Below are positions 2,140 to 20,161 of a DNA stretch of 48,996 nucleotides, piece after piece. The stretch spans positions 1 to 48,996 of the forward strand of contig CABMCA010000100.1 in assembly GCA_902384525.1 (NCBI GenBank), given 5' to 3'. This DNA is from an uncultured archaeon. GTDB taxonomy: Archaea > Halobacteriota > Methanosarcinia > Methanosarcinales > Methanoperedenaceae. The stretch's first letter is position 1. Every line of letters starts with the position of its first letter. A program made the position numbers and the translations under genes. Under the pieces are notes generated by a model. The model made no database searches. It was given only the letters and a program-made list of their open reading frames with translations, and was not told the DNA's origin.

Positions 2140-2258
2140 TATCATCACTCCAATGTATAAGATAAACAATTCAATTTATATATTTATCCTTTATTAAGAG
2201 TATGAAGAAATTATATACTATTGCATCATTTTAAAATAGTGGTTAAAGGAATTTGACA

Positions 2259-4646
2259 ATGTCAAGAGATGAACATCAAACGCGCATCGAACTCATTAAT
2301 CCCGCTCTCTATAATCGTGGCTGGGGTGATTCCTTGATTCGGGAAGAAAAGACCCCTGGAGGGACGGATATCATAGATGGCAGACCGAGAAAACGAAGGG
2401 GAAGAACGGATTATCTTCTCTGTGTTCAAATTGTTAAAGGCAAACCCCCTATGCCTTTGGCAATACTTGAGGCGAAATCTGAAGATAAATTGCCATCACT
2501 TGGTATTCAACAGGCAAAAGATTACATGAAAAAATTCAATGTTCCTTTCGTTTTCTCAACCAATGGGAAGCTTTTTACTGAGTATGGAAAGGATACAGAA
2601 CAAATAAAGGACGCTTTGAGTTTATCAGATTTTCCAACACCTGAAGAACTTAAGCAGCGATATGAAAAAATTAACGGTTTCAAACTTGAATCAGAAGTTG
2701 CAAAACCATTGCTCATGCCTTATAAAGGCGGGGAAGCTGCACGATATTACTTTCAGGATGCTGCCATCCGTGCTGCGCTGGAAAAAATTGCTCTTGGAAA
2801 GAACAGATTGTTGCTATCCCTTGCTACAGGAACTGGAAAAACAGTAATTGCCGTACAGCTTCTTCATAAACTTGGGCAGGCATGTCAGCTTAAACGAGCT
2901 TTGTTTGTGTGTGATCGTGATGAGCTTAGAACACAGGGAATGGGAAAACTTCATAGCGTTTTTGGAGATAATGCCCAGATTGTTACTACGCAAGAACCTC
3001 AGGCAAATGCAAAGATCATTGTCGCCACATATCAGACTTTGAATGTTACAGCAGAAGATGATGAGCCAAGATTCTGGAAAGAAAATTATCCAAAAAATTA
3101 TTTCAGTCATATTATCCTTGATGAATGCCATCGCAGCGCATGGGGAAAATGGAGCGTAATTCTCACGGATAATCCAGATGCAGTACATATCGGTCTTACT
3201 GCAACGCCACGTATTGTTGTTGGCGGAAAAAAAGGATCGGACGGCAGAAATGGTGATGAAAATATAACCGCTCACAATATCGAGTATTTCGGCGACCCTA
3301 TCTATGAATATTCCATCAGCGATGGGCAGGAGGACGGTTATCTTGCAGCATGCGAAGTTATTCGAAGAACAGTTGATTTAGATAAGAAGGAAATTACAAA
3401 AGAAGATATAGAAAGGCGCTCGGCTTTCGATCCCTATACTGGCAAAAAGATTAATCCAAAGGATATTGAAGACCAGTATAATGCAAAAGATTATGAAGTC
3501 AAATTGATGCTGGATGACAGGGTAAAAGCTATGTCTGAAGATTTATTCCAGCATTTGCTCGATACCGGCGGACCTCATCAAAAGACGATCATATTCTGCG
3601 CAAGGGATTCTCATGCCAACCAGATTATGATTGCAATGAATAATCTTTACGAAAAATGGTGCAAAGTAAACAAGCAAATGGTCAGGGAATGGTATGCTTT
3701 TCAATGCACAGGAAACCCTGATTTGAGACCTCCGGCTGACAAAATTATTCCTGATTTCCGGGGTTCTAAGAATTCACACTTTATAGCTGCTACGGTTGAC
3801 CTGCTTTCTACAGGCGTGGATATTCCCAATCTTGGCAACGTTGTGTTTTTCAGATATCTCGAATCACCCATCAGTTTTTACCAGATGGTTGGCAGGGGAA
3901 CAAGAACAGGTGAGCCGCGCGGTTCTAAATTGATGTTCCGCTTATATGATTATACCAACGCTACCCGGCTTTTCGGCGAAGAATTCAAGAGCCGCGCCAA
4001 ACCCTCAAAGCCTGAAGAACCGCCAGAGGGTATCGAGTCTCCGACTTCTTCTTATGGTGACGATACGCCAAAGCGGAGGATTATTCGGGTTGGTGAACAG
4101 CAGTTCACTGTTCAGATCGAAGGCGAGGGGAGGTCTATTCTTTGCGAAGAGAATGGAAAAGAGGTTCTTGTACCTCTGGAAGAATATAAAGAAATACTTG
4201 CGCAAAGGCTTGTGGATGAAGCGCCGGGTGTTGATGATCTGCGGGAGAAATGGACTAAACTTGAAAAAAGGCTTAAATTGATATCTCAACTTGGAGGCGA
4301 TGGTGCAGTGCGGCTCATTCGTGAACTTGAGGATGAACGAGAGTGCGACCTTTTTGATGTGCTTGCCAAACTTGGATATGGCATACCGCCAAAATCAAGA
4401 ATTGAGAGGACAACAGCTTTCAAATACAAAAATAAGCAGTGGCTCCGTCAGTTCCCTGAGATAACGGGAAATGTGCTTGTTTCTATTGCGCGCCAGTTTG
4501 AAAAGGGAGGGATTGAGGAGCTTGAGACGACTGAAATTTTTAATGAGGCTGAGGTAGTGGCGAGCGGTGGATTTCAGGCGCTTGTCGGACTCAAAATAGC
4601 TCCGGAGATGCTGATTCAGGAGACAAAGACGAGGTTACTTACGTGA
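2259..4646 (+). CDS. hsdR: Type I restriction endonuclease subunit R (HsdR, EcoEI-like)
   Basis: The 795-residue motor/nuclease subunit of a type I restriction-modification complex, which translocates DNA and cuts it away from the recognition site. The N-terminal nuclease has a PD-(D/E)xK layout: D51 in GRTDYLL and E71-x-K73 in LEAKSED. The helicase core has Walker A ATGTGKT near residue 190, motif II DECH in ILDECHRSAWGKW, motif III GLTATPR, and motifs V/VI in STGVDIPNLGNV and YQMVGRGTRTG. The C-terminal part matches the EcoEI R family. The ATG at 2259 is preferred over the TTG six bases earlier because AAAGGA sits eight bases before it. It is first in the hsd island, about 470 bases before hsdS, with a repeat-rich patch between. 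Confidence 0.95.
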   Translation: MSRDEHQTRIELINPALYNRGWGDSLIREEKTPGGTDIIDGRPRKRRGRTDYLLCVQIVKGKPPMPLAILEAKSEDKLPSLGIQQAKDYMKKFNVPFVFSTNGKLFTEYGKDTEQIKDALSLSDFPTPEELKQRYEKINGFKLESEVAKPLLMPYKGGEAARYYFQDAAIRAALEKIALGKNRLLLSLATGTGKTVIAVQLLHKLGQACQLKRALFVCDRDELRTQGMGKLHSVFGDNAQIVTTQEPQANAKIIVATYQTLNVTAEDDEPRFWKENYPKNYFSHIILDECHRSAWGKWSVILTDNPDAVHIGLTATPRIVVGGKKGSDGRNGDENITAHNIEYFGDPIYEYSISDGQEDGYLAACEVIRRTVDLDKKEITKEDIERRSAFDPYTGKKINPKDIEDQYNAKDYEVKLMLDDRVKAMSEDLFQHLLDTGGPHQKTIIFCARDSHANQIMIAMNNLYEKWCKVNKQMVREWYAFQCTGNPDLRPPADKIIPDFRGSKNSHFIAATVDLLSTGVDIPNLGNVVFFRYLESPISFYQMVGRGTRTGEPRGSKLMFRLYDYTNATRLFGEEFKSRAKPSKPEEPPEGIESPTSSYGDDTPKRRIIRVGEQQFTVQIEGEGRSILCEENGKEVLVPLEEYKEILAQRLVDEAPGVDDLREKWTKLEKRLKLISQLGGDGAVRLIRELEDERECDLFDVLAKLGYGIPPKSRIERTTAFKYKNKQWLRQFPEITGNVLVSIARQFEKGGIEELETTEIFNEAEVVASGGFQALVGLKIAPEMLIQETKTRLLT

Positions 4647-4651
4647 AGGAA

Positions 4652-4676
4652 CCGCAGATGAACGCAGATGAACGCA
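4652..4676 (+). repeat. 25-bp dispersed repeat, copy 1
   Basis: A tandem of the unit CGCAGATGAA directly after hsdR. The 25 bases 4652-4676 are identical to the reverse complement of 18346-18370 inside the U32 peptidase gene. This is a short dispersed genomic repeat, not part of hsdR. A GTG-started frame from 4643 runs through it and continues into the HicB-like gene, but its N-terminal 99 residues are translated repeat and have no protein character. Confidence 0.85.
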
Positions 4677-4768
4677 TATTTAATACCGTAACTGAATTGG
4701 GGGGGATAAATCACAACAAAGTCAGCAATGAACCTCGGTACAAAGATAACAATAAAAAAGGTGTGATA

Positions 4769-4851
4769 GAACACGGATTGCACGGATTACACAGATGTGC
4801 ACGGATTAAACGTATCTGTGAAAATCCGTCCAATCCGTGTCATCCGTGTTC
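4769..4851. repeat. Imperfect palindromic repeat of CACGGATT units
   Basis: Three blocks are mirrored: 4769-4778 (GAACACGGAT) with 4842-4851, 4781-4788 (CACGGATT) with 4832-4839, and 4790-4796 (CACAGAT) with 4814-4820. The transcript could fold into a long bulged hairpin. A further repeat-like patch (GACGCAAAGAGTGCAAAG) follows at about 4884-4901. Together with 4652-4676, the 293 bases between hsdR and the next gene are mostly dispersed repeat; I see no gene there. Confidence 0.8.
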
Positions 4852-4939
4852 TACCTCAAAATGTTGGTCATTTATCATACCAGGACGCAAAGAGTGCAAA
4901 GTACGCCGACTGACCAATTTGCGACCTGTATGGTCAGAA

Positions 4940-5131
4940 ATGAAAAAAATCCGTTTTTTAATAGAGAAAGACCCAAAAGGCGGCTTTAATACCCGCGCCC
5001 TAGATTATTCTATCTTTAAGCAGAGTGAGACGATTGAAGAAGTGAGAGAGAATATTATTGATGCTGTGATGTGCCATTTTGATAATTCAAATGATATTAT
5101 TGTGGAGACAATCTTGCATGAGCATCGATAA
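4940..5131 (+). CDS. HicB-like small protein (orphan antitoxin-type)
   Basis: A 63-residue protein resembling short HicB-type antitoxins with a partial RNase-H fold. It begins MKKIRFLIEKDPKGGF and has the family pattern of a charged strand, an aromatic/leucine turn (ALDYSIFKQSETIEE), a helix (EEVRENIIDAVMCHF) and a closing strand. I chose the ATG at 4940 because homologous character starts there and everything upstream is repeat sequence; no strong ribosome site is visible. No HicA toxin lies next to it; the hsdS ATG at 5118 overlaps its end by 14 bases. It may be an orphan antitoxin or a coupling peptide inherited with the hsd operon. Confidence 0.65.
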   Translation: MKKIRFLIEKDPKGGFNTRALDYSIFKQSETIEEVRENIIDAVMCHFDNSNDIIVETILHEHR

Positions 5132-6365
5132 AAAAAGGAAACTACCCGTGGGTTGGAAGATGATGAAATTGAAGCAATTGGGATTGTTATCACAAGGCGG
5201 GACTCCAAGCACAGACGTATCAGAATATTGGGATGGTAATTATCCTTTTATTACCGGTGCAGATGTTACTGAATTGTTTGTTTCAAATGCCCGTTCTTAT
5301 TTAACTGAAAAAGGTCTCGATTCGGGTAAAACTCAAAGATGTGAAAATGGAGATTTACTCATTGTTTCAAGAACAAGAGTTGGACGGATTGGAATGGCAG
5401 CAAAAACCCTGGGAGTAAGCCAAGACGTAAGTGTTCTAAAAGTTGATAAAAGTTATGATGCTAAATACTTGGCTATCTTTTTAATTTCTATTTCAAAGCA
5501 ACTCGAAGAAGCCTGTCAGGGTTCAACAATCAAAGGTCTGACGAGAGGTTATATTGAGAATATCAATATTCCCATCCCCCCCACTCTTTCCGACCAGCTC
5601 ACCATCGCTTCCGACCTCGAAAAAAGGATGACGCAGGTCGAGAAGATGAGAGGGGCGGCATTGCGCCAGAAAGAAGCGATTGGAGCGATGAAGGGCGCTA
5701 TTTTGAGTGAGATTTTTTCTTATGAGGAAGGGGATGAGTTGCCGGAGGGGTGGAAATGGAAGACGATAAAGGATGTTATAGAAAAGAATATTCAAGTCTT
5801 CAACCCTGAAAATTATGGGAAGGAAAAATTTAATTATATCGATATTACAGGTGTAGACAATGTGCGCAAGAAAATTTCCAATGCCAGTCAAATATTAGTA
5901 AAAGAGGCTCCAAGCAGAGCGAAAACAATTTTAAGAGAAAATGATATAATCATTTCAACAGTTAGACCTAATTTGAACGCGGTTGCGTTATTGGATAAAA
6001 GTAATGAAGGAAATATTTGCAGTAGTGGTTTTTGTGTTATTAGATTAAAAGATGACTATCACGCACGATACTTTTTTCATTATCTTACCTCACCATATTT
6101 TGTCGATGCAGTTTCTAATATGGTTCAAGGCGCCATGTATCCAGCCATAAGTAATGATGATGTAAAGGGTTTCTCAATACCGCTCCCTCCCACTATATCT
6201 GAGCAGACCATCATATCCTCTGACCTTGAGCGCAAAATGTCAGAGCTTGAGAAAGCGCGCCTGGCAGCAGAAAAACAGCTTGATGCAATCGAGGCGCTGC
6301 CCGGGGCGATCCTGCGCGAAGTATTTGATTTTGAAGAGGAGTATTCAGGTTCGCAGAAGGAATAA
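5118..6365 (+). CDS. hsdS: Type I restriction-modification specificity subunit (HsdS)
   Basis: The 415-residue DNA-recognition subunit, which sets the bipartite target for both the methylase and the restriction complex. It has the classic duplicated plan. The first target-recognition domain opens with LPVGWKMMKLKQLG; the central conserved helix region holds PIPPTLSDQLTIASDLEKRM followed by GAILSEIF. The second half repeats this with LPEGWKWKTIKDV, then PLPPTISEQTIISSDLERKM and GAILREVF. The two PPT-S-(D/E)Q repeats are clearly homologous. The start at 5118 begins just before the first recognition domain; GGAG lies 11 bases upstream. The start overlaps the HicB-like gene. The DUF4258 gene begins one base after the stop, so translation is probably coupled. 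Confidence 0.93.
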   Translation: MSIDKKRKLPVGWKMMKLKQLGLLSQGGTPSTDVSEYWDGNYPFITGADVTELFVSNARSYLTEKGLDSGKTQRCENGDLLIVSRTRVGRIGMAAKTLGVSQDVSVLKVDKSYDAKYLAIFLISISKQLEEACQGSTIKGLTRGYIENINIPIPPTLSDQLTIASDLEKRMTQVEKMRGAALRQKEAIGAMKGAILSEIFSYEEGDELPEGWKWKTIKDVIEKNIQVFNPENYGKEKFNYIDITGVDNVRKKISNASQILVKEAPSRAKTILRENDIIISTVRPNLNAVALLDKSNEGNICSSGFCVIRLKDDYHARYFFHYLTSPYFVDAVSNMVQGAMYPAISNDDVKGFSIPLPPTISEQTIISSDLERKMSELEKARLAAEKQLDAIEALPGAILREVFDFEEEYSGSQKE

Positions 6366-6366
6366 A

Positions 6367-6711
6367 ATGAAATTTCAAATCATCGGAACCGAAGAAAAAC
6401 CCAAGGGCAGACTTTATAAAATTGATGTTGATAGTCTAAAACTTCATCTGCTTTTTACGCATCATTCTTTAGATCGCATTAGTGTTTGGGGCTTGAGTAT
6501 TGAACAAGTTCTGGATGCTTTGATATTTCCTGAAGAAGTTGTTACAGGTCATTTTAATAGGTTTATTGCACATAAAAGACATGATAAACATGTAGTTAGA
6601 GCAGTGTATGAATATGATATAAAATTACCCGTTCTTATAACAGTTTATTATCCATCAGCAGATAGATATTTTGAAGGAGGTGAAAAATATGCAGATAAAA
6701 TACTCACCTGA
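6367..6711 (+). CDS. DUF4258-like small protein, putative toxin
   Basis: A 114-residue protein starting one base after the hsdS stop. The core HHSLDRISVWGLSIEQVLDAL followed by FPEEVV fits the DUF4258 pattern (H-S-x-R-I...GI...V...P), a RelE-like fold often seen as the toxin partner of small antitoxins; the C-terminal ITVYYPS strand fits too. The ATG at 6367 is preferred because upstream in-frame codons lie inside hsdS. The 3' end overlaps the DUF2283 gene by 23 bases, the usual organisation of a two-gene toxin-antitoxin-like unit. The toxin role is inferred from family and arrangement. Confidence 0.75.
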   Translation: MKFQIIGTEEKPKGRLYKIDVDSLKLHLLFTHHSLDRISVWGLSIEQVLDALIFPEEVVTGHFNRFIAHKRHDKHVVRAVYEYDIKLPVLITVYYPSADRYFEGGEKYADKILT

Positions 6712-6901
6712 CGCAGATGCTTTGATAATACGCCTTCGTGATGGAAAGCCTGTAGATTCAGTTGATCTTGCGGAAGGGATCATAGCCCATTATTCAAAAG
6801 ATAAAAAGATACTTGAAATTGAAATTCTGGATGCTTCAAAGACAGTGCAAATGAGCGAATTGAACGTATCACTTAAAGGTGCACATGCAGTAGTAGCATG
6901 A
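6689..6901 (+). CDS. DUF2283 family small protein, putative antitoxin
   Basis: A 70-residue DUF2283 protein: the opening MQIKYSPDADALIIRL, the central VDLAEGIIAHYS and the following ILEIEILDAS are the family's hallmarks. A strong GGAGGTG lies seven bases before the ATG at 6689, inside the end of the DUF4258 gene. DUF2283 genes commonly follow DUF4258 genes, and the pair is regarded as a putative toxin-antitoxin module. It is lodged between hsdS and hsdM. Confidence 0.85.
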   Translation: MQIKYSPDADALIIRLRDGKPVDSVDLAEGIIAHYSKDKKILEIEILDASKTVQMSELNVSLKGAHAVVA

Positions 6902-6948
6902 AAAAATAATTAGATTAAAGAAATTACTTGCAATCGAATCAGGATTTA

Positions 6949-7224
6949 ATGAAGATGATATCAGAAGAAGATAAAGATACAATCATAAAATATGCTAAAA
7001 AATATAAAGTATCCTATATTATTCTATTTGGTTCTTCGATAAAGTATGACAAAGAATCCAATGATATAGACATCGGTGTTAATGGAATCGAACCACGCCT
7101 GTTTTTTGAATTTTATACCGAGTTATTTAAAAATTTGTCAAAACCTGTGGATCTCATTGACCTTTCCAGGAAATCATTATTTAGCGAGCTTGTAGAAAAA
7201 AGAGGACTAAAAATTTATGGATAA
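6949..7224 (+). CDS. MNT-type minimal nucleotidyltransferase
   Basis: A 91-residue minimal nucleotidyltransferase. The signature is LFGSSIKYDKESNDIDIGV, giving GS followed by the D-x-D metal-binding pair. Relatives (MntA/MenA type) act as antitoxins that AMPylate a HEPN RNase partner. The start is uncertain: ATG at 6949 or 6955, or TTG at 6928; I took 6949, with AGGAT a few bases upstream. An ATG at 7217 overlaps the stop, as a HEPN partner would, but that frame closes after 22 codons, so the partner seems missing. The gene lies 81 bases before hsdM. Confidence 0.8.
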   Translation: MKMISEEDKDTIIKYAKKYKVSYIILFGSSIKYDKESNDIDIGVNGIEPRLFFEFYTELFKNLSKPVDLIDLSRKSLFSELVEKRGLKIYG

Positions 7225-7285
7225 ACTGACTGAGAATATTCTCACAGCAATTTCAAAAAGAAATCAAGAATTTTTAATTGATTAA
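7217..7285 (+). pseudogene. 22-codon stub behind the MNT gene, possible HEPN remnant
   Basis: An ATG at 7217 overlaps the end of the nucleotidyltransferase gene and opens a 22-residue frame, MDKLTENILTAISKRNQEFL and two more residues, ending in TAA at 7283. The position and helical, charged character are what the start of a HEPN partner would look like. hsdM starts 20 bases later. It may be the remnant of a deleted partner or only a chance frame. Confidence 0.3.
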
Positions 7286-7305
7286 AATATATAGTTGGAA
7301 AAAAT

Positions 7306-8892
7306 ATGGCAAAAAACAACAACGGAAACGGCAAAATCATAAACTCACAGGCTGCCATGGACAAGGCGGTCAAATCTGTATGCGATATATTGCGCCGCGA
7401 TAGAGCAAAAGGGGCGAGACTCTATGTGCCTGAATTAACCTGGATGTTCTTCCTGCGCTACCTTGACATAATGGAGCAGAACGAGGAGCAGAAGGCGAAA
7501 GCACTTGGCACTCCGTACAGTGAAACATTAAAAGCCCCATACCGGTGGAGGGACTGGGCTGCGCCTTTTGATAAAACAGTTCCTTTCGATGAAATGATCC
7601 GGATGAAATTACCTGGATGGAAAAGGCGCGAACTCTCAGAAAAGACAATCGGTTCCTTCCTCTCATTCGTGAATGATGACCTTTTCCCACATTTAAAGGC
7701 TATTGGAAGCGTGACAGGAGCCAGCAATAAACAAAAAGTCATTTCTGAGATATTCCGCAATAAGGAAAAGACCATTTTATCAAGCGAAACCAACCTTCAG
7801 AACGCTCTTGATAAAATTCATACGCTCTCCGAAGCCAGTATCAGCGACCAGCACATGTTCCCCATTTCACAGGCATTTGAAGGACTATTGCCAAGCCTGG
7901 GTGAAAAGAAAAATGATGGGGGACAATTCTTCACGCCGCGCGAGATTATTCGTGTGATAGTCAATGTTATCAAACCACAGATAGGTAAAACAGTTTATGA
8001 CCCTTGTTGCGGCACAGGGGGATTTCTTATTGAAGCCTACAAATCGATGTATAGCCAAAATCCTCTGGGAACACAGATAAAAGAATTAAAAACAGAAACA
8101 TTCTGGGGAAGAGAGGATGCAAGCGAAGCAATTCCCATCTGTCTTGCAAATATGATGCTGCATGACGTTGATCTTCCGCGTATCTGGCATGGCAATACCC
8201 TGACAGGCGCAGTAACTTACGGAGACCTGTTTGAAGGCGCGCCGGCGCAGTTTGATTATGTTATGACCAATCCTCCATTCGGAAGCAAAGAAGGAAAAGA
8301 TGCACAGGCGCAATTTCCATACAAATCCGGAAAAGCTCAGATTCTCTTTCTTCAGCATATTATTGATTCCCTGGCAGACGGTGGAACTTGTGGCATGGTC
8401 ATAGATGAAGGGGTCATGTTCCATACAAAGACCGCAGCATATCAGCAAACTAAACGAAAATTACTGGATGAGTGCAACCTCTTTTGTGTTATCAGCCTTC
8501 CACAGGGCGTGTTTATTAATGCAGGTGCAGGTGTAAAGACTGATTTGTTTTTCTTCACAAAAGGACGGCAGACTGAGAGAGTATGGTATTATGATATGAC
8601 CTTAACTGATGACTTCCAACTGCGAAAGGTTAACAAAGGTAATCCACTTACGATAGAAGCATTCAATGATTTCTTTGAAAGATTTGCTCTTGATCCTGAT
8701 GACCCAAAAAGAACCAGCGAGCGAAGCTGGTATGTGTCTATTGAGGAAATAAAAAAGAAAAAATATGATCTGAAGGCAACCAATGATAATGCGCCGGACT
8801 ATTCAGATAAAAGAACCACATCTGAACTAATGGTAATTATTCAGGACTCTCAAAAAGAGATCGAAGAATGCTTAAAAGTATTGAACAAATGA
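7306..8892 (+). CDS. hsdM: Type I DNA methyltransferase subunit M (HsdM)
   Basis: The 528-residue N6-adenine methyltransferase of the type I system. The N-terminal HsdM_N helical region spans roughly residues 10-150. The SAM-binding motif I is VYDPCCGTGGFLIEAY near residue 225, preceded by GGQFFTPREI, and catalytic motif IV is MTNPPFGSKE near residue 320. It has the usual family length. It needs HsdS for specificity and HsdR for cleavage. The ATG at 7306 has GGA seven bases upstream. The hsdR-hsdS-(small genes)-hsdM order is unusual, since hsdM normally sits next to hsdS. Its stop overlaps the radC start (ATGA). Confidence 0.95.
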   Translation: MAKNNNGNGKIINSQAAMDKAVKSVCDILRRDRAKGARLYVPELTWMFFLRYLDIMEQNEEQKAKALGTPYSETLKAPYRWRDWAAPFDKTVPFDEMIRMKLPGWKRRELSEKTIGSFLSFVNDDLFPHLKAIGSVTGASNKQKVISEIFRNKEKTILSSETNLQNALDKIHTLSEASISDQHMFPISQAFEGLLPSLGEKKNDGGQFFTPREIIRVIVNVIKPQIGKTVYDPCCGTGGFLIEAYKSMYSQNPLGTQIKELKTETFWGREDASEAIPICLANMMLHDVDLPRIWHGNTLTGAVTYGDLFEGAPAQFDYVMTNPPFGSKEGKDAQAQFPYKSGKAQILFLQHIIDSLADGGTCGMVIDEGVMFHTKTAAYQQTKRKLLDECNLFCVISLPQGVFINAGAGVKTDLFFFTKGRQTERVWYYDMTLTDDFQLRKVNKGNPLTIEAFNDFFERFALDPDDPKRTSERSWYVSIEEIKKKKYDLKATNDNAPDYSDKRTTSELMVIIQDSQKEIEECLKVLNK

Positions 8893-9551
8893 AGCGAATC
8901 AAAGATCTACCGCAATTTAGCAGACCAAGAGAAAAACTGAAAGAAAAAGGGGCGGGAGCTTTATCGGATATTGAGCTAACTGCTGTAATATTAGGCAGCG
9001 GCAATAAGGGTCAGGATGTTTTGTCCCTCTCCTCTAAAGTTGCAAAATTATTAGCAGAAAAAAAAGGCAAATTGAGCCATGAAGAACTTTCGAAAATTGA
9101 AGGCATCGGGCCTGCAAAAGCATCACAAATTTTAGCTGGTTTTGAACTGGCAAGAAGATATATTGTGAAGGAAACGAACAAAATAACCGGAGCTAACGAC
9201 GTATTGCTTATGATTAATGATATAGCAGGCAAACAGCAGGAACATTTTATCTGTATTTCCCTTAATGGCGCCAATGAAGTTATTGAAAAGAGAATTGTAA
9301 CCGTGGGACTGCTTGATAAAAGCCAGGTGCATCCCCGCGAAGTTTTTGCCGATGTTATCACTGACAGAGCAGCATCTGTAATTTTTGCCCATAATCATCC
9401 TTCTGGCGAAAATAAACCAAGTAATAGCGATCTGAAAATACATGAACAATTAACAGAAGCTGGCAAAATCCTCGGAATCAAGATACTTGACCATATAATC
9501 ATTTCCAGAAAAGGTTATTATAGTTTTCAGGAAAATGGCTTGATTAATTGA
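8889..9551 (+). CDS. radC: RadC/JAB-domain protein
   Basis: A 220-residue RadC-family (UPF0758) protein: an N-terminal PREKL...GAGALSDIEL region, a helix-hairpin-helix (IEGIGPAKASQIL near residues 75-88) and a C-terminal JAMM metalloprotease-like domain with AHNHPSGENKPSNSDL, giving the H-x-H and Asp zinc ligands. Its role is unproven; the name comes from an abandoned link to DNA repair, and the family is often found with mobile and defence genes. The ATG at 8889 overlaps the hsdM stop and matches the usual family start MK-I-DLP; an ATG at 8868 is possible. It looks like the last gene of the hsd island. RadC is mainly bacterial, which fits horizontal acquisition. Confidence 0.9.
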   Translation: MKRIKDLPQFSRPREKLKEKGAGALSDIELTAVILGSGNKGQDVLSLSSKVAKLLAEKKGKLSHEELSKIEGIGPAKASQILAGFELARRYIVKETNKITGANDVLLMINDIAGKQQEHFICISLNGANEVIEKRIVTVGLLDKSQVHPREVFADVITDRAASVIFAHNHPSGENKPSNSDLKIHEQLTEAGKILGIKILDHIIISRKGYYSFQENGLIN

Positions 9552-12159: not shown

Positions 12160-14513
12160 ATGGTAAAGTTTAAATTGGCTGACACGAAAATAAAAAAAGA
12201 TAAAATCATCAAAGATAAAATTAAAGAAAAATCCCCTAAAAAATCAAAAATAACCGATTCTGAATTTATACCAGCCAATAAGATTAATAAACCTGCACCC
12301 ACTGAAAACGAAAAAAGGATAAAAATTATCGACCTCAACCTGCCAGCCCCTGTAAAACAATTTTACCTGGATTCAGGGATCCAATCACTCTATCCCCCGC
12401 AGTCAGCAGCCATTGATGCAGGGCTTCTTGAAGGAAAGAATATCGTGGCCGCCATCCCTACAGCCTCTGGTAAAACACTCCTTGCAGAATTTGTCATGTT
12501 GCAATCGGTATTGAATGAAACTAAAAAAGGAAAAGCTCTATATATAGTGCCTCTTCGCGCTCTTGCAAGTGAAAAGTACGAACGCTTCCGCAGTTTCGAG
12601 AGCATAAAGAAAAGCGACGGGCGTGGAGTTTCAGCAGGCATTGCCACAGGTGATTTTGATTCCAACGATGAATGGCTGGGAAATTTCGATATAATCGTTG
12701 CCACCTCCGAAAAAGTTGATTCACTGCTCCGGAACAGGTCGCACTGGATTAGTGAGATTACAGTAGTGATCGCAGATGAGGTGCATCTTATTGACTCGCC
12801 TGACCGCGGGCCAACGCTTGAGATAGTACTCGCGAAATTGATAAAACTTAGACCCCAGTTAATAGCGCTTTCAGCAACTATCGGAAATGCCCGGGAAGTA
12901 GCAAAATGGCTTTCTGCAGAACTTGTTTTGAGTGAATGGCGCCCCATCGTATTAAAAGAAGGAGTCTTTTTCGGGAATGCCATTACTTTTGGGGACAGGA
13001 GCCAGCGTGAGGTCAAGGAATTCCACAGGGACAGCGCCATATCACTCGTTGCCGATACTATAAAAGAGGGGGGACAGTGCCTTGTTTTGAAAGCAGCAGG
13101 AAGAACACTGAAGGTATGGCAGGGCGCATGGGTATTTCAATATCAAAACTTCTGGATAATGATACTAGGGAAAAACTAAAAAATCTCGCGGCAGAAGTTC
13201 ATGAAACAAGTGAAGTGGATACTGCAAAAAAACTTGCGATGTGTGTCGCGAACGGGAGTGCATTCCATCATGCTGGTCTTATTTCAGAGCAGCGAAAGCT
13301 TATCGAAGGAGGATTTCGTAATGGAATTATAAAAGTAATAGCAGCGACACCAACACTCGCAGCGGGGCTGAATCTTCCCGCGCGGCGGGTGATAATCAAA
13401 GGTTACAGGCGTTATGATGTGAATTTTGGCCAGGTCCCCATACCTGTTCTTGAATACAAGCAAATGGCAGGAAGAGCAGGAAGGCCGAGGCTTGATCCCT
13501 ATGGTGAATCTGTCCTTGTTGCAAAAACTTATGATGAACTGGATGAACTCAAGAAACAGTATGTGCTTGCGGGTCCTGAAAAAATATGGTCAAAACTTGG
13601 CTCTGAAAATGCATTACGCACACACATCCTTTCTTTGATCGTTACAGGATTTGCAAGAGATATGGTTGAATTGCTGGAGTTCATGCGTGCTACTTTTTAT
13701 TCCGCCCAGCAGGAACCATGGAGCCTCAAAGTTGTGATCGACAATATAATCCGTTTCCTTGTTGAAAAGAAAATGATCGTTCAAAAAGACGGGCTTTTTG
13801 CCACCCGTCTTGGAGAAATGGTTTCACGATTGTATATCGATCCGCTTTCAGCTTCATTGATGATCGAAGGGATGGAAAAGATTGAAGAAAAAGGCATGCA
13901 ATTTACAGAAATGACGCTTCTGCATCTTATTGCCTCGACGCCCGATATGCGCCAGCTTTATCTGCGCTCAAATGATTACAACTGGCTAAGCGATCTTGTC
14001 ATGGACCACCATACCGAATTCGTACATATACCGGCCCAGTTCAAGGTTGATTACGAATGGTTCCTCTCACAGGTAAAAACAGCATGTGTGATGCTTGACT
14101 GGATAAATGAGATCAAAGAAGAAGACATCGTAAAAAAATTCGGGATCGGAGAAGGGGATATCAGGGCGCTTTCAGAAACAACGCTCTGGCTTGTCCATTC
14201 AATGGCTGAACTTGGAATATTTCTAAAACGTTCATCGTCAGGTAAAGCAAGGGAACTTGAAAAACGAGTCGAATATGGGGCAAGTCCCGAGCTTCTCGAT
14301 CTTATCCAGATCCGGGGCATCGGAAGGGTACGCGCGCGCAAGTTATTTGATGCGGGAATAAAAGATATGGAGACGCTGCGGGCGCAAGAGCCAGATAAAG
14401 TTGCAAAGATCATAGGCACAAAAGTCGCGATAAAAGTCTTAAAACAGATAGGTGTCACTCCCCCGCCGGAAGAAAAATCGGAAGAACAACGCAAACTTCA
14501 TGACTTTGGGTAA
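12160..14513 (+). pseudogene. hel308: Hel308-type Ski2-like DNA helicase, interrupted by one frameshift
   Basis: This encodes a superfamily 2 3'-5' helicase of the Hel308 family, acting at stalled replication forks. The first part (frame from 12160) has a Lys-rich N-terminal extension, the [13 protein letters not shown] opening, Walker [13 protein letters not shown] box IADEVHLID and motif III LSATIGN. The second part (frame ending at 14513) carries [10 protein letters not shown], motif V TPTLAAGLNLPARR, motif VI QMAGRAGRP, a winged-helix/ratchet region and a C-terminal helix-hairpin-helix (IRGIGRVRARKLF). The frames meet in the T run at 13084-13087: one extra T restores [12 protein letters not shown], the expected motif IV. 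It may be a homopolymer sequencing error rather than a dead gene. Confidence 0.88.
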
Positions 14514-14554: not shown

Positions 14555-15499
14555 TTGACTTTAACGGGATTATTGTATAGTGGCTATGAGGTATTACTTG
14601 CCAGGGAAATAAAGGACAAGCCTGTTCCTGAGCATGTTGCCATTATAATGGATGGCAACAGGAGGTTTGCAAGAACCCGGGGCCTGGCACAATATTATGG
14701 CCATTTCAAGGGAGCAGACACTACAGAAAAAGTCCTTGACTGGAGTTTTGACCTCGGAATTAAGCAGCTTACTGTTTATGCTTTTTCAACAGAGAATTTC
14801 GAGAGGGATGAGGTTGAGAAAAATAAGCTTTTTGAACTTATCGGGATCAAGTTCGATAAAATATGCACAGATCAGCGTACCCATAAACGCCGGATGAGGG
14901 TCAGGGTCCTGGGTAATATAGACCTGCTTCCGCCAGCATTGAAATCATCTGCGAAACATGCTGAGGAAATAACAAGGAATTACAATGGCGTGTATCTGAA
15001 TGTGGCTCTTGCTTATGGAGGACGGCAGGAACTTGTGGATGCGGCGCGAAAGATGGCGGGCAAGGTCAAAAATGGCGAATTATCTATAAAAGATATTAAT
15101 GAGGAGACTATTTCTAATAATTTATATCCTTCAAGCGGTTCTGTTCCGTATGTAGATCTTATTATCAGGACAGGTGGGGATGAAAGGATTTCAAATTTCC
15201 TTCCATGGCAGGCCAACGGTAATGAGTGTGCCGCATATTTTTGCGCTCCTTTCTGGCCTGAGTTCCGGCGTATTGACCTTCTTCGCGCCATTCGCACATT
15301 CCAGACACGAGAGCATGAAAGACAAAAGAATACCATTATACGGGTTGTGAAACTTTTAAGCTATTATGGTATGGTGGAAGTGGAAGACGTCATTCGAATA
15401 TCGAGGAGATCCATAACGATCCCGAAGGAAGAAGTTGTAAATATACTTCATGAAGTTGCACGACGTAATGTAGTATTGAATAATATGATCAAGTGGTAG
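14555..15499 (+). CDS. uppS: Cis-prenyltransferase, catalytic (UppS family)
   Basis: A 314-residue cis-prenyltransferase that condenses isopentenyl diphosphate into long polyprenyl diphosphates, the source of lipid carriers for glycosylation. The catalytic P-loop is intact: PEHVAIIMDGNRRFAR with catalytic D33. The C-terminal substrate/Mg motif is LIIRTGGDERISNFLPWQ. The TTG at 14555 is the only start giving the usual N-terminus (L-x-SGYE-LL-REI); an upstream ATG at 14538 is out of frame and stops at once. It begins 41 bases after hel308 and converges on a degenerate paralogue, 12 bases between the stops. Confidence 0.93.
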   Translation: MTLTGLLYSGYEVLLAREIKDKPVPEHVAIIMDGNRRFARTRGLAQYYGHFKGADTTEKVLDWSFDLGIKQLTVYAFSTENFERDEVEKNKLFELIGIKFDKICTDQRTHKRRMRVRVLGNIDLLPPALKSSAKHAEEITRNYNGVYLNVALAYGGRQELVDAARKMAGKVKNGELSIKDINEETISNNLYPSSGSVPYVDLIIRTGGDERISNFLPWQANGNECAAYFCAPFWPEFRRIDLLRAIRTFQTREHERQKNTIIRVVKLLSYYGMVEVEDVIRISRRSITIPKEEVVNILHEVARRNVVLNNMIKW

Positions 15500-15511
15500 T
15501 TTTTTAATTGA

Positions 15512-16165
15512 TCATTTCCCGAATCTTCTTTTCCGTTTCTGGAAATCCCTTAACACTCTCAGGAAGTCAACCTTCCTGAAATCCAGCCAGTTGACGTCTG
15601 TAAAATAAAGTTCAGAATAAACAGACTGCCAGATAAGAAAATCAGTCAATCTTTTTCCTCCTGCCCGGATAACAATATCAGGCTCCGATTTAAATAATAA
15701 ATGGGATTCGATCACATCTTCATTTATAGTATCAGGAGATAAGTTCCCCTCTTTTACCTGGAACATGACCTCTTTCAATGCTCTTGTCAATTCATATTTT
15801 CCGCTGTAACCAAGTGATATATCAATAATCATATCTTCTGTTTTGTGTTTACTTATTTCTTTGTCCCCTCTTTTAATGATATTAATATTTGGTGTGATAT
15901 TTTTAAGTGCCGGCGGAATTTCTGTTGATAGTTTATTGCAGATTTGATTGCTGATGTGGGTATCCACTTCGATTATATTAATATAAACAGTAACGGTCTT
16001 TACTCCGGTCTCTTTGCACCAGCACGCAAATGAATTTAATTTCAGATAATCCGTATCGGCAAAAAGATCACTTTCAAAAAGTGCAAGAACAATATGATCC
16101 GGAACATTCATTTCTTTTATCTTTGTCTTAAGTTTCCATTCATATAATTTTGAGATAAATCCCAT
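15512..16165 (-). CDS. Degenerate cis-prenyltransferase paralogue, likely non-catalytic partner
   Basis: A 217-residue UppS-family protein. It aligns with its neighbour from the start (LYEWKLKTKIKEMNVPDHIV), but the catalytic DGNRR is replaced by ESDLF (the Asp becomes E31). The C-terminal RAGGKRLTDFLIWQ keeps the R-x-GG and F-WQ features. A protein that loses the Asp motif but retains the C-terminal R-x-G element matches the NgBR/Nus1-type subunit of heteromeric cis-prenyltransferases; a heteromeric enzyme has been described in Methanosarcina mazei. I infer that it forms a complex with the 14555-15499 product. It is divergent from the DUF92 gene, only about 60 bases between the two starts. 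Confidence 0.85.
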   Translation of the reverse strand: MGFISKLYEWKLKTKIKEMNVPDHIVLALFESDLFADTDYLKLNSFACWCKETGVKTVTVYINIIEVDTHISNQICNKLSTEIPPALKNITPNINIIKRGDKEISKHKTEDMIIDISLGYSGKYELTRALKEVMFQVKEGNLSPDTINEDVIESHLLFKSEPDIVIRAGGKRLTDFLIWQSVYSELYFTDVNWLDFRKVDFLRVLRDFQKRKRRFGK

Positions 16166-16226
16166 CGCCCTTTTATTGGAGTATAAGGATAAAGTATTTG
16201 CCTGTAAATACCATTTCTGGGAACAA

Positions 16227-17603
16227 ATGATGCCAACAAAGGAATATGAGAAACAAATAAATTATATTCTTCTCGGATTGCTGGTTCTGTTTTTTCCGTT
16301 TTTCAATACAAATATTTTCCTGTTATCCCTTTTGTTTTTTATTGCAGCGATCATTTTTTCATTTGTACCTGCTGATTCATCATTTTTCCGGTTCTTTGCA
16401 AGAGAATCAGACCGGAAAGCGGGGAAGCTTGTCAGTATGATACAGCTATTCCTGACGACGGGATTTCTCCTGGCGATCAGCCTTATGATCGGGGTAGATA
16501 TTGCAGGAGTATATAAATTCCCATTATTTATTATAGGGGCTGCTTTTGTTATTACAACATTTGGTGACGGCATTGCAGATATCATACATATTATTGACAA
16601 AGAAAAAAAACAAACCGGGGATGATAAGCAAAGTAAGCTTAAAGTTTATTCTGCAAAATCAAGTATCATTTTCCTGATTTCAGGGAGTGTATTTGCTTTA
16701 TTTATAGGAGGATGGATATCCGGTTTCACTTTATATGTTCCTGTCGGGATGCTGATATTTCTTTCTGTGATCGGAGCCCTTACTGGCGCTCTTCTTGAAT
16801 CCATGACAAAGGATGAAGATAATATCGTGATCCCTTTTGGCTCAGCTATGGTAATGTGGCTTTTTTATATGTTCGGATATAATGTAGATACTATCTATCT
16901 TATGAAGGTGCTCGTATTTTCGTTCGTTCTCGGTTATCTTTCCTACAGGGCACATGTTGCCGACGTATCTGCCATGCTTTCTGCAACATTGCTTGGGGTA
17001 GTGATAATAATATCAAGTGATGTTAAATGGTTTTTTATGCTTCTTGCTTTTTTCCTGCTTGGCAGCATGTTTACCCGTTATAAATACAATTTTAAACTGA
17101 CCAGGGGGATTGCCGAAGGAAAAGGAGGGGTCAGAGGGTATAAGAATGTATTTTCCAACTCACTGGCAGGTCTTACGCTTGCCATAGCATATGGGATTTT
17201 TCCCTGGCATGGGCAGGTCCTGCTGGCAGCTTATATGGGATCAGTGGCAACAGCATGCGGTGATACCCTGGCAAGTGAGATAGGTGAGACCTATAAAGGA
17301 GAGCCAAGGATGATCACAACGTTTAAAAAAGCAAAGCCGGGAACTGATGGGGCAGTATCGATCCTGGGTGAAGGGGCGGCATTTTTCGGGGCATTAGTAA
17401 TTGCCCTTCTGGCTTTTATTCTGGTACCTATAAACCTTTCTCTTGTATTTATCGTGACAGCAGGAGGATTTATCGGTACGAACATTGATAGCCTGCTTGG
17501 CGCAACTCTTCAGCAAAAAGGTTATCTCACAAATAACGGAGTAAATCTTGTTGCAACTATTTCAGGAGCGATTGTTTCAGGTCTGCTTTATGTTATTATA
17601 TGA
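16227..17603 (+). CDS. DUF92 family polytopic membrane protein (VTE6-like)
   Basis: A 458-residue integral membrane protein of the DUF92/TIGR00297 family, with about ten or more membrane helices from the N-terminus onward. The C-terminal half has the conserved family blocks ACGDTLASEIGETYKGEPR, KPGTDGAVSILGEGAAFFG and GGFIGTNIDSLLGATLQ. The plant relative VTE6 is a phytyl-phosphate kinase, so a role in phosphorylating prenyl-phosphate lipids is plausible, and its position beside two cis-prenyltransferase genes fits. Start: ATG at 16227 with GGGA a few bases before it, or the overlapping ATG at 16230. The head part diverges from VTE6 and is larger. Confidence 0.8.
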   Translation: MMPTKEYEKQINYILLGLLVLFFPFFNTNIFLLSLLFFIAAIIFSFVPADSSFFRFFARESDRKAGKLVSMIQLFLTTGFLLAISLMIGVDIAGVYKFPLFIIGAAFVITTFGDGIADIIHIIDKEKKQTGDDKQSKLKVYSAKSSIIFLISGSVFALFIGGWISGFTLYVPVGMLIFLSVIGALTGALLESMTKDEDNIVIPFGSAMVMWLFYMFGYNVDTIYLMKVLVFSFVLGYLSYRAHVADVSAMLSATLLGVVIIISSDVKWFFMLLAFFLLGSMFTRYKYNFKLTRGIAEGKGGVRGYKNVFSNSLAGLTLAIAYGIFPWHGQVLLAAYMGSVATACGDTLASEIGETYKGEPRMITTFKKAKPGTDGAVSILGEGAAFFGALVIALLAFILVPINLSLVFIVTAGGFIGTNIDSLLGATLQQKGYLTNNGVNLVATISGAIVSGLLYVII

Positions 17604-17605
17604 TT

Positions 17606-20161
17606 TCATAAAATCCCCCTGAAGTAATGACCTGTAGTATGCTCACCCTGGCAATGTTTTCCATTCTCCCGTCCGCAAACAGCATCATCGATCGCGTCCC
17701 TGTATTCTTTCGTGATTTTTCCCGTCGTCTTTGCATCATATGTTCCTGCTTCTATTCTGAGGCAGCTGACACCTGCTTTTATTATATCGGGGATAGATCC
17801 AAGTAAACACAACTCGCGGGAATTCATAATATTAGTACGGTTATGTATGTCGGTCATGACCGGGAATTTAAAGCCTTTTTCATCCTTCAGGAAAATATCT
17901 TCCGTCTTTTCTCCGGAAAAAAGACTTCCTATGAGGTCATGCTCTGATACCATTAGCGGAAAAAAACCATGCACGATGCATTCTGCATGCCCGGACTGCG
18001 CAAGCTCTCTTATTTCATTCAGGGTAAGTTCCGGTGATAATGTCACTCTCCGGCTGAAATTCAAAAAATGATCTAAAGCCTGCCTGTTAAAGATGTTGAG
18101 TGGATAATCAATAACAATTGGCTTATTGGCAAAATTTGTCCGAAGGTGATACAGAACACCAAGATTTCCGACAAGGAAACCATCTGCTGCTTCAATTGGA
18201 TCTTTGCCATTCGGATTCGATTGAAAATAGGAAATTTCAAGCTCTTTTAAATCTTTTACTATCCGGGGAGTGCTGATTAGTACTTTAACACTCTTATTAT
18301 GTGCATATTCAATTGCCTCACTGTATTTATCTTTAGCAATAAATCTGCGTTCATCTGCGTTCATCTGCGGTTTGTTTTCTTTTTCAAATATGCATTTATC
18401 TGCGTCCCGATTACCCTTCGGGAGCGGGAATCCACGTATGCTCTGTTGGCATACGTGTCTGCGCCCTTCCGAGGCGCGACTCGGAATCTGCGGATTGTTT
18501 TCTTTTCTAAACCTGACATCCTTAAATGCTTCTTCTCCAAGGTAAATAACATCGGCTCCGCCATCAACCGCAGCTTTGAGACAATCAACAGAACCCGCAT
18601 TGACGGATAATATCGGCTTGATATCAAAATTTTTTGAACTGAAAGATATCTTCGGTTCACTGCATTCTCGTTTCCATTTCCGGGCGCGAATTTTCGTAAG
18701 CTCCTCAATCGCCTGCCTGCGGACAGAGTTCAATTCAGAAACAGGAATGAAAATATTCTTATCAAGTTCAAAATCCACCTCTTTCGCTTCAAAAACAGTG
18801 TTGCCAAGCTTTATTAACTGTTCAGCGACCGAACTTTTGGAAACTGGTGTTGTTTTTGCCGGATTTACTATATCTCCCCTCATCGTAACCTTATTTTCAC
18901 CGTCATCGATCAGGAGTCCAAGCGGCTCACCGATTCTTGCCTTAAAGGACATTTTTATCGGGATTTTCCTGGCATTCCCAATTTCCAGTGATGCCATTAG
19001 CTTGCTGTCAAAAGTCTTGAAAACAACTTCATCCTCTGAAACTTCGATATCAAGAGGTATTTTTACAGTAGAACCCAGGACGGCTTCTGCGGCAATTTTG
19101 TTGCCAATATACATATTCCTTACAGTAATTCCTGTTTCCCGGTTCCCTATACCTATGCCGTCCCCGATCCTCAACGGGGCCTTGAGGTCAATTGAAACCA
19201 ATTTTGTACGTGAATCATAATCAACCGTTTTTCCAAGCACTGTCCCGCGGTTATGCGGGTATTTCCGGCTCATTAACTGACTTGCGGGATTCCCGAAAAA
19301 GTACCCTGCTGTGAATTCCCTGTTGAACAATTGAAGCAATATGTGTTTTTCATCTTTTGTTACCCGGAAATCCGCGGGTGCGGCAAGGTACCTGTCTATG
19401 AGTTTCCGGTAAACACGAACCACTCCTGCAACATATTCGGGGCGCTTCATCCGTCCTTCGATCTTGAATGAATCAATGCCAGCATCCATCAATGCACCGA
19501 TATGCTCGCTCATGTTGAGGTCTTTGGGACTTAATAAATATCCTTCGACTTCACCGATCCTGTATTTTTTCCTGCATGGCTGGGCGCAGTAACCGCGGTT
19601 CCCGCTTCTTCCTCCTATCATGCTGCTCAACAGGCATTGGCCTGAATATGAAAAACATAATGCGCCGTGGATAAAGGTTTCAATTTCGATCGAAGTTTGT
19701 GATTTGATACGGGAAATCTCATCAAGCGACATTTCGCGCGCAAGAACCACGCGCTTTGCGCCCATATCCTGGAGGAACTTTACTCCTTCAATATTGTGGA
19801 TCGTCACCTGGGTGCTGGCATGTACCGGAAGGGCTGGAAGCTGCTCCCGAAGCAGGCTCAGGATTCCAATATCCTGGACGATGACCGCATCCGCGCCTGC
19901 GTTGCATAGAAATTGCAGATATTCACCTGCTTTTTCAAGTTCTGTATCCTTTACCAGTGTATTCATAGTCACATAGGCCCTGACTCCCCGGATATGAGTG
20001 TAATCAATAGCCCATTCCAGTTCCTCATTCGTGAAATTGTATGCAAATTGCCGCGCGCTAAAAAGCGTCCCGCCAAAGTATACAGCGTCAGCTCCATTCT
20101 CGATCGCTGCGATTAGCGCCTCTTTGCTGCCAACTGGAGCCAGTAATTCAGGTTTGTGCAT
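17606..20161 (-). CDS. U32 family peptidase (RlhA-like) with repeat-derived insert
   Basis: An 851-residue U32-family protein. The first half is typical: PELLAPVGSKEAL, GADAVYFGG, VHASTQVTIHN, RVVLAREMSLDEI, the Cys-rich GQCLLSSMIGGRSGNRGYC with C-x3-C (CAQPC), SFKIEGRMKRPEYV. A middle domain resembles DUF3656. The second half is a further U32-like barrel (SVNAGSVDCLKAAVDGGADVIYLG, later ECIVHGFFPLMVSEH). U32 proteins include RNA hydroxylation factors (RlhA) needing Fe-S clusters; the role here is unproven. Residues about 550-606 (18346-18511) are translated dispersed repeat that splits the second barrel just after its first strand, yet the frame stays open. Confidence 0.88.
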   Translation of the reverse strand: MHKPELLAPVGSKEALIAAIENGADAVYFGGTLFSARQFAYNFTNEELEWAIDYTHIRGVRAYVTMNTLVKDTELEKAGEYLQFLCNAGADAVIVQDIGILSLLREQLPALPVHASTQVTIHNIEGVKFLQDMGAKRVVLAREMSLDEISRIKSQTSIEIETFIHGALCFSYSGQCLLSSMIGGRSGNRGYCAQPCRKKYRIGEVEGYLLSPKDLNMSEHIGALMDAGIDSFKIEGRMKRPEYVAGVVRVYRKLIDRYLAAPADFRVTKDEKHILLQLFNREFTAGYFFGNPASQLMSRKYPHNRGTVLGKTVDYDSRTKLVSIDLKAPLRIGDGIGIGNRETGITVRNMYIGNKIAAEAVLGSTVKIPLDIEVSEDEVVFKTFDSKLMASLEIGNARKIPIKMSFKARIGEPLGLLIDDGENKVTMRGDIVNPAKTTPVSKSSVAEQLIKLGNTVFEAKEVDFELDKNIFIPVSELNSVRRQAIEELTKIRARKWKRECSEPKISFSSKNFDIKPILSVNAGSVDCLKAAVDGGADVIYLGEEAFKDVRFRKENNPQIPSRASEGRRHVCQQSIRGFPLPKGNRDADKCIFEKENKPQMNADERRFIAKDKYSEAIEYAHNKSVKVLISTPRIVKDLKELEISYFQSNPNGKDPIEAADGFLVGNLGVLYHLRTNFANKPIVIDYPLNIFNRQALDHFLNFSRRVTLSPELTLNEIRELAQSGHAECIVHGFFPLMVSEHDLIGSLFSGEKTEDIFLKDEKGFKFPVMTDIHNRTNIMNSRELCLLGSIPDIIKAGVSCLRIEAGTYDAKTTGKITKEYRDAIDDAVCGRENGKHCQGEHTTGHYFRGIL
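18346..18511. repeat. In-frame repeat insertion inside the U32 gene
   Basis: 18346-18370 is the reverse complement of 4652-4676. Two similar blocks, 18363-18388 and 18486-18511 (ATCTGCGG followed by a TTGTTTTC run), flank the inner part, suggesting insertion or duplication between direct repeats. In between is a perfect 9-bp inverted repeat, CACGTATGC 18433-18441 with GCATACGTG 18449-18457. Translated, it gives an uncharacteristic, charged stretch including PQMNADERR. Confidence 0.75.

Follow-up and report, generated by a model that had tools for sequence, protein, structure and literature searches.

The window, i.e. the whole stretch of 48,996 nucleotides that was analysed, derives from a genome of Candidatus Methanoperedens. 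Two genes of the cis-prenyltransferase (UppS) family, here called chain 1 and chain 2, lie tail-to-tail in it, with a gene for a membrane protein of the DUF92 family on the far side of chain 2. The features of the locus are as follows.

14555..15499, plus strand: chain 1, 314 aa, called with a TTG start; probable DHDDS-like catalytic subunit of a cis-prenyltransferase, with DGNRR but without a C-terminal RxG, extended at the C-terminus by about 55 residues of helical structure
14651..14665, plus strand: DGNRR catalytic and diphosphate-binding motif, chain 1 residues 33-37
15500..15511: intergenic gap, 12 bp between the two stop codons (tail-to-tail), with a T6 run after the stop codon of chain 1
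15512..16165, minus strand: chain 2, probable non-catalytic NgBR-like subunit, 217 aa; without DGNRR, C-terminal part conserved
15515..15526, minus strand: C-terminal R-F-G-K of chain 2, residues 214-217; RxG motif, predicted to complete the active site of the partner in trans
16176..17603, plus strand: DUF92/TIGR00297 membrane protein (VTE6 family), divergent from chain 2; third gene of a conserved cluster

The preliminary description of this DNA had reported two convergent UppS-family genes 12 bases apart, and both the ORFs and the gap agreed with this. Searches against PF01255 (cut-off 27 bits) matched the whole domain in chain 1 (237 bits) and the C-terminal half of the domain in chain 2 (111 bits); in a genome-wide search these were the only PF01255 proteins of the source genome. 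Chain 2 was 97% identical to its counterpart in strain BLZ2.

Motifs and anatomy of the two chains

Chain 1 was aligned with UppS of E. coli and B. subtilis and with human DHDDS and NUS1 (NgBR). It keeps D33-G-N-R-R37 (within IMDGNRRF), STENF together with its R84, and RTGGDERISNF, and, like DHDDS, it continues past the C-terminus of UppS with additional residues that contain no RxG. DGNRR was invariant in the 45-row chain 1 alignment (A2), in which the substrate residues were also kept. The best PDB sequence-profile match of chain 1 was human DHDDS, with 251 bits versus 229 for the best bacterial enzyme, and the top eight PDB fold matches of its AlphaFold single-chain model (pLDDT 87) were all human DHDDS. 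A sister relationship of DHDDS and chain 1, at which the rank of the scores hints, was not adopted; the tree placed DHDDS on a weak branch (82/82). Chain 1 also scored 238 bits against TIGR00055, the equivalog of homodimeric UppS (cut-off 110). An assignment to that type, defined by DGN and RxG in one chain, was rejected, since the two motifs were found split over two chains.

At the site of DGNRR, the aligned stretch of chain 2 reads LALFESDLF, with Phe30 at the position of the catalytic Asp, so that the reported contrast between DGNRR in one gene and ESDLF in the other was borne out. Relative to chain 1 it has two deletions, one of about 11 residues behind the first strand and one of about 20 close to the third strand; the same two segments are missing in human NUS1 in this alignment. 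The C-terminal R-x-GG ascribed to chain 2 in the preliminary description merged two features. IRAGGK (residues 166-171) belongs to the RTGG region, while the motif actually located at the C-terminus is the RxG of the ending KRKRRFGK (R214-F-G216); a C-terminal motif is thus kept, though not the one described. NUS1 ends in RLGK, chain 2 in RFGK. Unlike NUS1, chain 2 retains the UppS-like RAGGKRLTDFLIWQSVYSELYFTDVNW block, which is lost in the human protein, and has no transmembrane N-terminus.

Conservation within chain 2 was uneven. The mean majority fraction was 0.35-0.61 for residues 1-160 and 0.82-0.87 for residues 161-217, a segment better conserved than most of chain 1; 26 positions were invariant, and 31 of the 43 invariant or near-invariant residues lay within 161-217. 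Judged by these values, the former active-site half of chain 2 has drifted and the interface half and tail have been retained. The AlphaFold single-chain model of chain 2 (pLDDT 83.5) showed a cis-prenyltransferase fold, with bacterial UppS ranking first and TM scores of 0.60-0.75 over the matches listed. NUS1 was not among the best 50 fold matches, so that NgBR is not distinguished by the fold alone. A placement of NUS1 in the tree was also discarded, as its branch (length 6.1) was too divergent to give a usable position.

Distribution of the pair and joint absence with AglB

Motifs were counted over all collected loci, some of them overlapping. DGNRR was present in 102/102 chain-1 ORFs and in 0/133 chain-2 ORFs. 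The C-terminal RxG was found in 131 of the 133 chain-2 ORFs, the remaining two having KFG, and at the aligned site in none of the 102 chain-1 ORFs, in which two chance matches to the pattern occurred elsewhere near the C-terminus. The most divergent copies, found subsequently, obeyed the same split. In the tree, chain 1 (95/92), chain 2 (80/87) and a third, MM_0014-like paralogue (100/100) each formed one group. Proteins of the MM_0014 type (DGNRRW, C-terminal TLGG) are likewise archaeal members of PF01255, and some relatives have one as their third family member. The type forms a clade of its own and is absent from the source genome. Such a third copy, with DGNRRW and ending in TLGG, was seen in two other Methanoperedens genomes (G007, G009; loci L170, L171). 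One genome of a Methanosarcinaceae-like family (G045; L176, L009) had chain 1 in duplicate and a single chain 2, in addition to the MM_0014 type.

Co-occurrence was surveyed in the phylum of the window, using 119 genomes that were at least 90% complete. Two or more PF01255 genes were present in 117 of these and none in two; no genome had exactly one. The second copy was chain-2-like in all 117, so both chains occurred in 117 genomes, neither in two and a single one in none.

This distribution bears on the possibility that chain 1 is a self-sufficient homodimer like bacterial UppS and chain 2 has an independent, regulatory or unrelated role. Every catalytic residue sits in chain 1, and archaeal enzymes of the MM_0014 type are active without RxG (PMC8131916), so the lack of RxG in chain 1 is not by itself proof of dependence on chain 2. 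Nevertheless, RxG is lacking from each chain 1, no genome has chain 1 without chain 2, and the two are absent together; the nearest relative of solved structure, human DHDDS, shows poor activity by itself (PMC7573591). We therefore regard a self-sufficient chain 1 as quite improbable.

Both genomes without the pair belonged to one family (f12), and PF01255 was found in none of its five genomes (G065, G073, G183-G185). The AglB/STT3 family PF02516, to which the oligosaccharyltransferase AglB belongs, was present in 117 of the 119 genomes and was absent from exactly the two that lacked both chains. Within f12, four of the five genomes were without PF02516; the fifth (75% complete, 5% contamination) gave an incomplete match close to the end of a contig. 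The joint absence of the pair and AglB thus concerns one lineage, and perhaps one event. It connects the pair with N-glycosylation by a route that does not depend on homology.

A second connection was seen in the Methanotrichaceae-like family f6, where AglB lay just downstream of chain 2 and in the same direction in five of the six sampled genomes. Reading of two f6 genomes confirmed AglB ORFs of 893-902 aa with WWDYG beside chain 2; in two named Methanothrix loci that were examined, AglB was not found adjoining chain 2. In two loci of a Methanotrichaceae-like genus (L238:474-4105 of G118 and L239:379-4168 of G093), an AglB with WWDYG directly followed chain 2, in the place of chain 1. The source genome has two AglB-family genes above the cut-off. 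The shared absence of the two chains and AglB, and the position of AglB beside chain 2 in one genus, speak in favour of the carrier-lipid role suggested in the preliminary description.

Gene order and the DUF92 neighbour

Linkage, defined as a distance within 10 kb, was examined in 106 genomes. Chain 1 and chain 2 were linked in 42 of these and were convergent in all 42. Chain 2 and DUF92 were linked in 45/106 genomes and divergent in 45/45, and nine further divergent pairs were recognized by coordinates (54 in total). All three genes were linked in 21/106 genomes, in the order DUF92 <- -> chain 2 -> <- chain 1. This arrangement was found in Methanoperedens, Methanocellales, haloarchaea and many further families and is therefore ancestral or very old. 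It is broken in the Methanosarcinaceae-like family and variable inside Methanoperedens; chain 1 and chain 2 are non-adjacent in Methanosarcinaceae, in the Methanotrichaceae-like family and in several others. Since the two chains are convergent, they do not form an operon and are not co-transcribed. In most linked pairs the spacing between the two 3' ends ranged from -54 to +42 bp. In nine loci from several lineages (L061, L062, L072, L075, L144, L179, L181, L182 and L189) the 3' ends of the two genes overlapped by 13-54 bp; with such an overlap, the stretch coding for RxG of chain 2 also codes, on the opposite strand, for the C-terminus of chain 1.

The DUF92 gene of the window scored 221 bits against PF01940 and 239 bits against TIGR00297 and contains the conserved motifs DTLxSExG and GTxG. 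DUF92/TIGR00297 is the family of VTE6, the phytyl-phosphate kinase. Archaeal biochemistry for a prenyl-phosphate kinase activity of DUF92 was not found in the literature search. An internal duplication of the protein (kinase fused to kinase) was considered and discarded, as a half-versus-half profile comparison was negative and the N-terminal half gave no Pfam match. DUF92 was present in 119/119 genomes, including the two f12 genomes without the pair. Its function therefore cannot depend strictly on the pair, and a dedicated role is unproven. The earlier proposal that DUF92 marks a local carrier-lipid locus thus held in part: it is a neighbour with an old linkage of fixed orientation, but genomes without the pair keep it all the same.

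Given the higher number of genomes in which chain 2 is linked to DUF92 than to chain 1 (54 versus 42), chain 2 might be thought to partner mainly DUF92, e.g. in a complex handling polyprenyl phosphate, the pairing with chain 1 being secondary. We consider this still less probable than a homodimeric chain 1, because the f12 genomes keep DUF92 without either chain and because a heteromer is already known from M. mazei (PMC8131916). The partial correlation of distances, with the third gene removed, also pointed away from DUF92, being 0.73 for chain 1 and chain 2 versus 0.15 for chain 2 and DUF92 (36 loci), a weak test in which species-tree effects remain. Owing to these effects, the correlation was rejected as proof of an interaction and was taken as weak support only. 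The notion that chain 2 is a functionless, decaying duplicate, to which its lost catalytic motif and variable N-terminal half might point, can practically be dismissed: chain 2 was present in every sampled family with chain 1, and the invariant positions and the strongly conserved residues 161-217 already contradict it.

Probable assignment as a heteromeric enzyme

Chain 1 and chain 2 very probably make up a cis-prenyltransferase that is an obligate heteromer of the DHDDS-NgBR or M. mazei type, as the preliminary description had proposed. This assignment is based on the complementary motifs, the joint presence and absence of the chains, their conserved linkage, folds and anatomy resembling DHDDS and NgBR, the co-absence with AglB and orthology, by elimination, to the M. 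mazei heteromer. Heteromeric enzymes of this kind had correctly been said to be known from eukaryotes (PMC7573591) and from M. mazei, in which MM_0618/MM_1083 forms a product of C45-50 (PMC8131916, citing Emi et al. 2019). Named Methanosarcina genomes had chain 1, chain 2 and no further type except, in some of them, an MM_0014 type that ends in TLGG, which makes MM_0618/MM_1083 orthologous to the pair by elimination. Both are pairs of PF01255 paralogues; unlike the tail-to-tail genes of the window, the two genes were unlinked in 16/16 sampled genomes of the Methanosarcinaceae-like family f5.

In the human enzyme (hcis-PT), NgBR lacks a cavity for the substrate, and its RxG tail reaches across the interface into the active site of DHDDS (PMC7573591). 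Chain 1 resembles DHDDS in having DGNRR and a helical C-terminal extension and in lacking RxG; chain 2 resembles NgBR in being non-catalytic, in the two matching deletions and in its C-terminal RxGK. Homodimeric UppS of E. coli and B. subtilis shares the fold and the family but carries DGNGR and RxG in one chain, whereas here they are divided between two genes.

By analogy with these homologues, the two chains would form a physical dimer or tetramer. Chain 1 would bind the allylic diphosphate and Mg2+ through DGNRR, the N and R of STENFxR, and RTGGxER, and would contain the elongation tunnel while lacking the C-terminal RxG. Chain 2 would have lost its substrate site and kept the dimerization half of the fold, and its RFGK tail is predicted to reach across the interface and complete the isopentenyl-diphosphate site of chain 1 in trans. 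The product, probably a long polyprenyl diphosphate to judge by the C45-50 product of M. mazei, would then be dephosphorylated to serve as carrier for AglB-dependent glycosylation. A wider proposal is that the three genes of the cluster constitute a carrier-lipid module that is ancestral in the phylum, with DUF92 acting on the polyprenyl phosphate of the heteromer, and that eukaryotic DHDDS-NgBR descended from the archaeal heteromer; taken together, we regard this as speculative and rather unlikely.

The biochemistry is not new, as MM_0618/MM_1083 of M. mazei is the same kind of enzyme. The present analysis adds that the pair occurs almost universally in the phylum, that the motifs are strictly divided between its chains, that it clusters with DUF92 in a fixed orientation and that it is lost jointly with AglB; a prior published description of these four points was not found in a partial literature search. 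In eukaryotes, dolichol is made by a catalytic subunit together with one that is catalytically dead, and human disease results from mutations in either of them. A near-universal archaeal pair with a strict split therefore offers a comparison set for how the dead subunit became necessary, and f12, with no pair and mostly no AglB, offers a natural test of the role of the carrier in N-glycosylation.

Several observations concern other parts of the window. A Hel308-like helicase upstream of chain 1 is divided between two ORFs that overlap each other (12160-13179 and 13077-14513). This would fit a frameshift, due either to an assembly error or to a pseudogene; in BLZ2 (L032) the helicase is a single frame of 764 aa. 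In the region 2253-9551, the ORF content points to HsdR, HsdS and HsdM of a type I restriction-modification system, with a RadC-like gene after them; this region is unrelated to the pair. A 27-base inverted dispersed repeat (AACCGCAGATGAACGCAGATGAACGCA) occurs in two copies, at 4650-4676 and at about 18346-18372, the second lying inside a U32-peptidase-like gene (17606-20161) and close to an unusual insert that keeps the frame.
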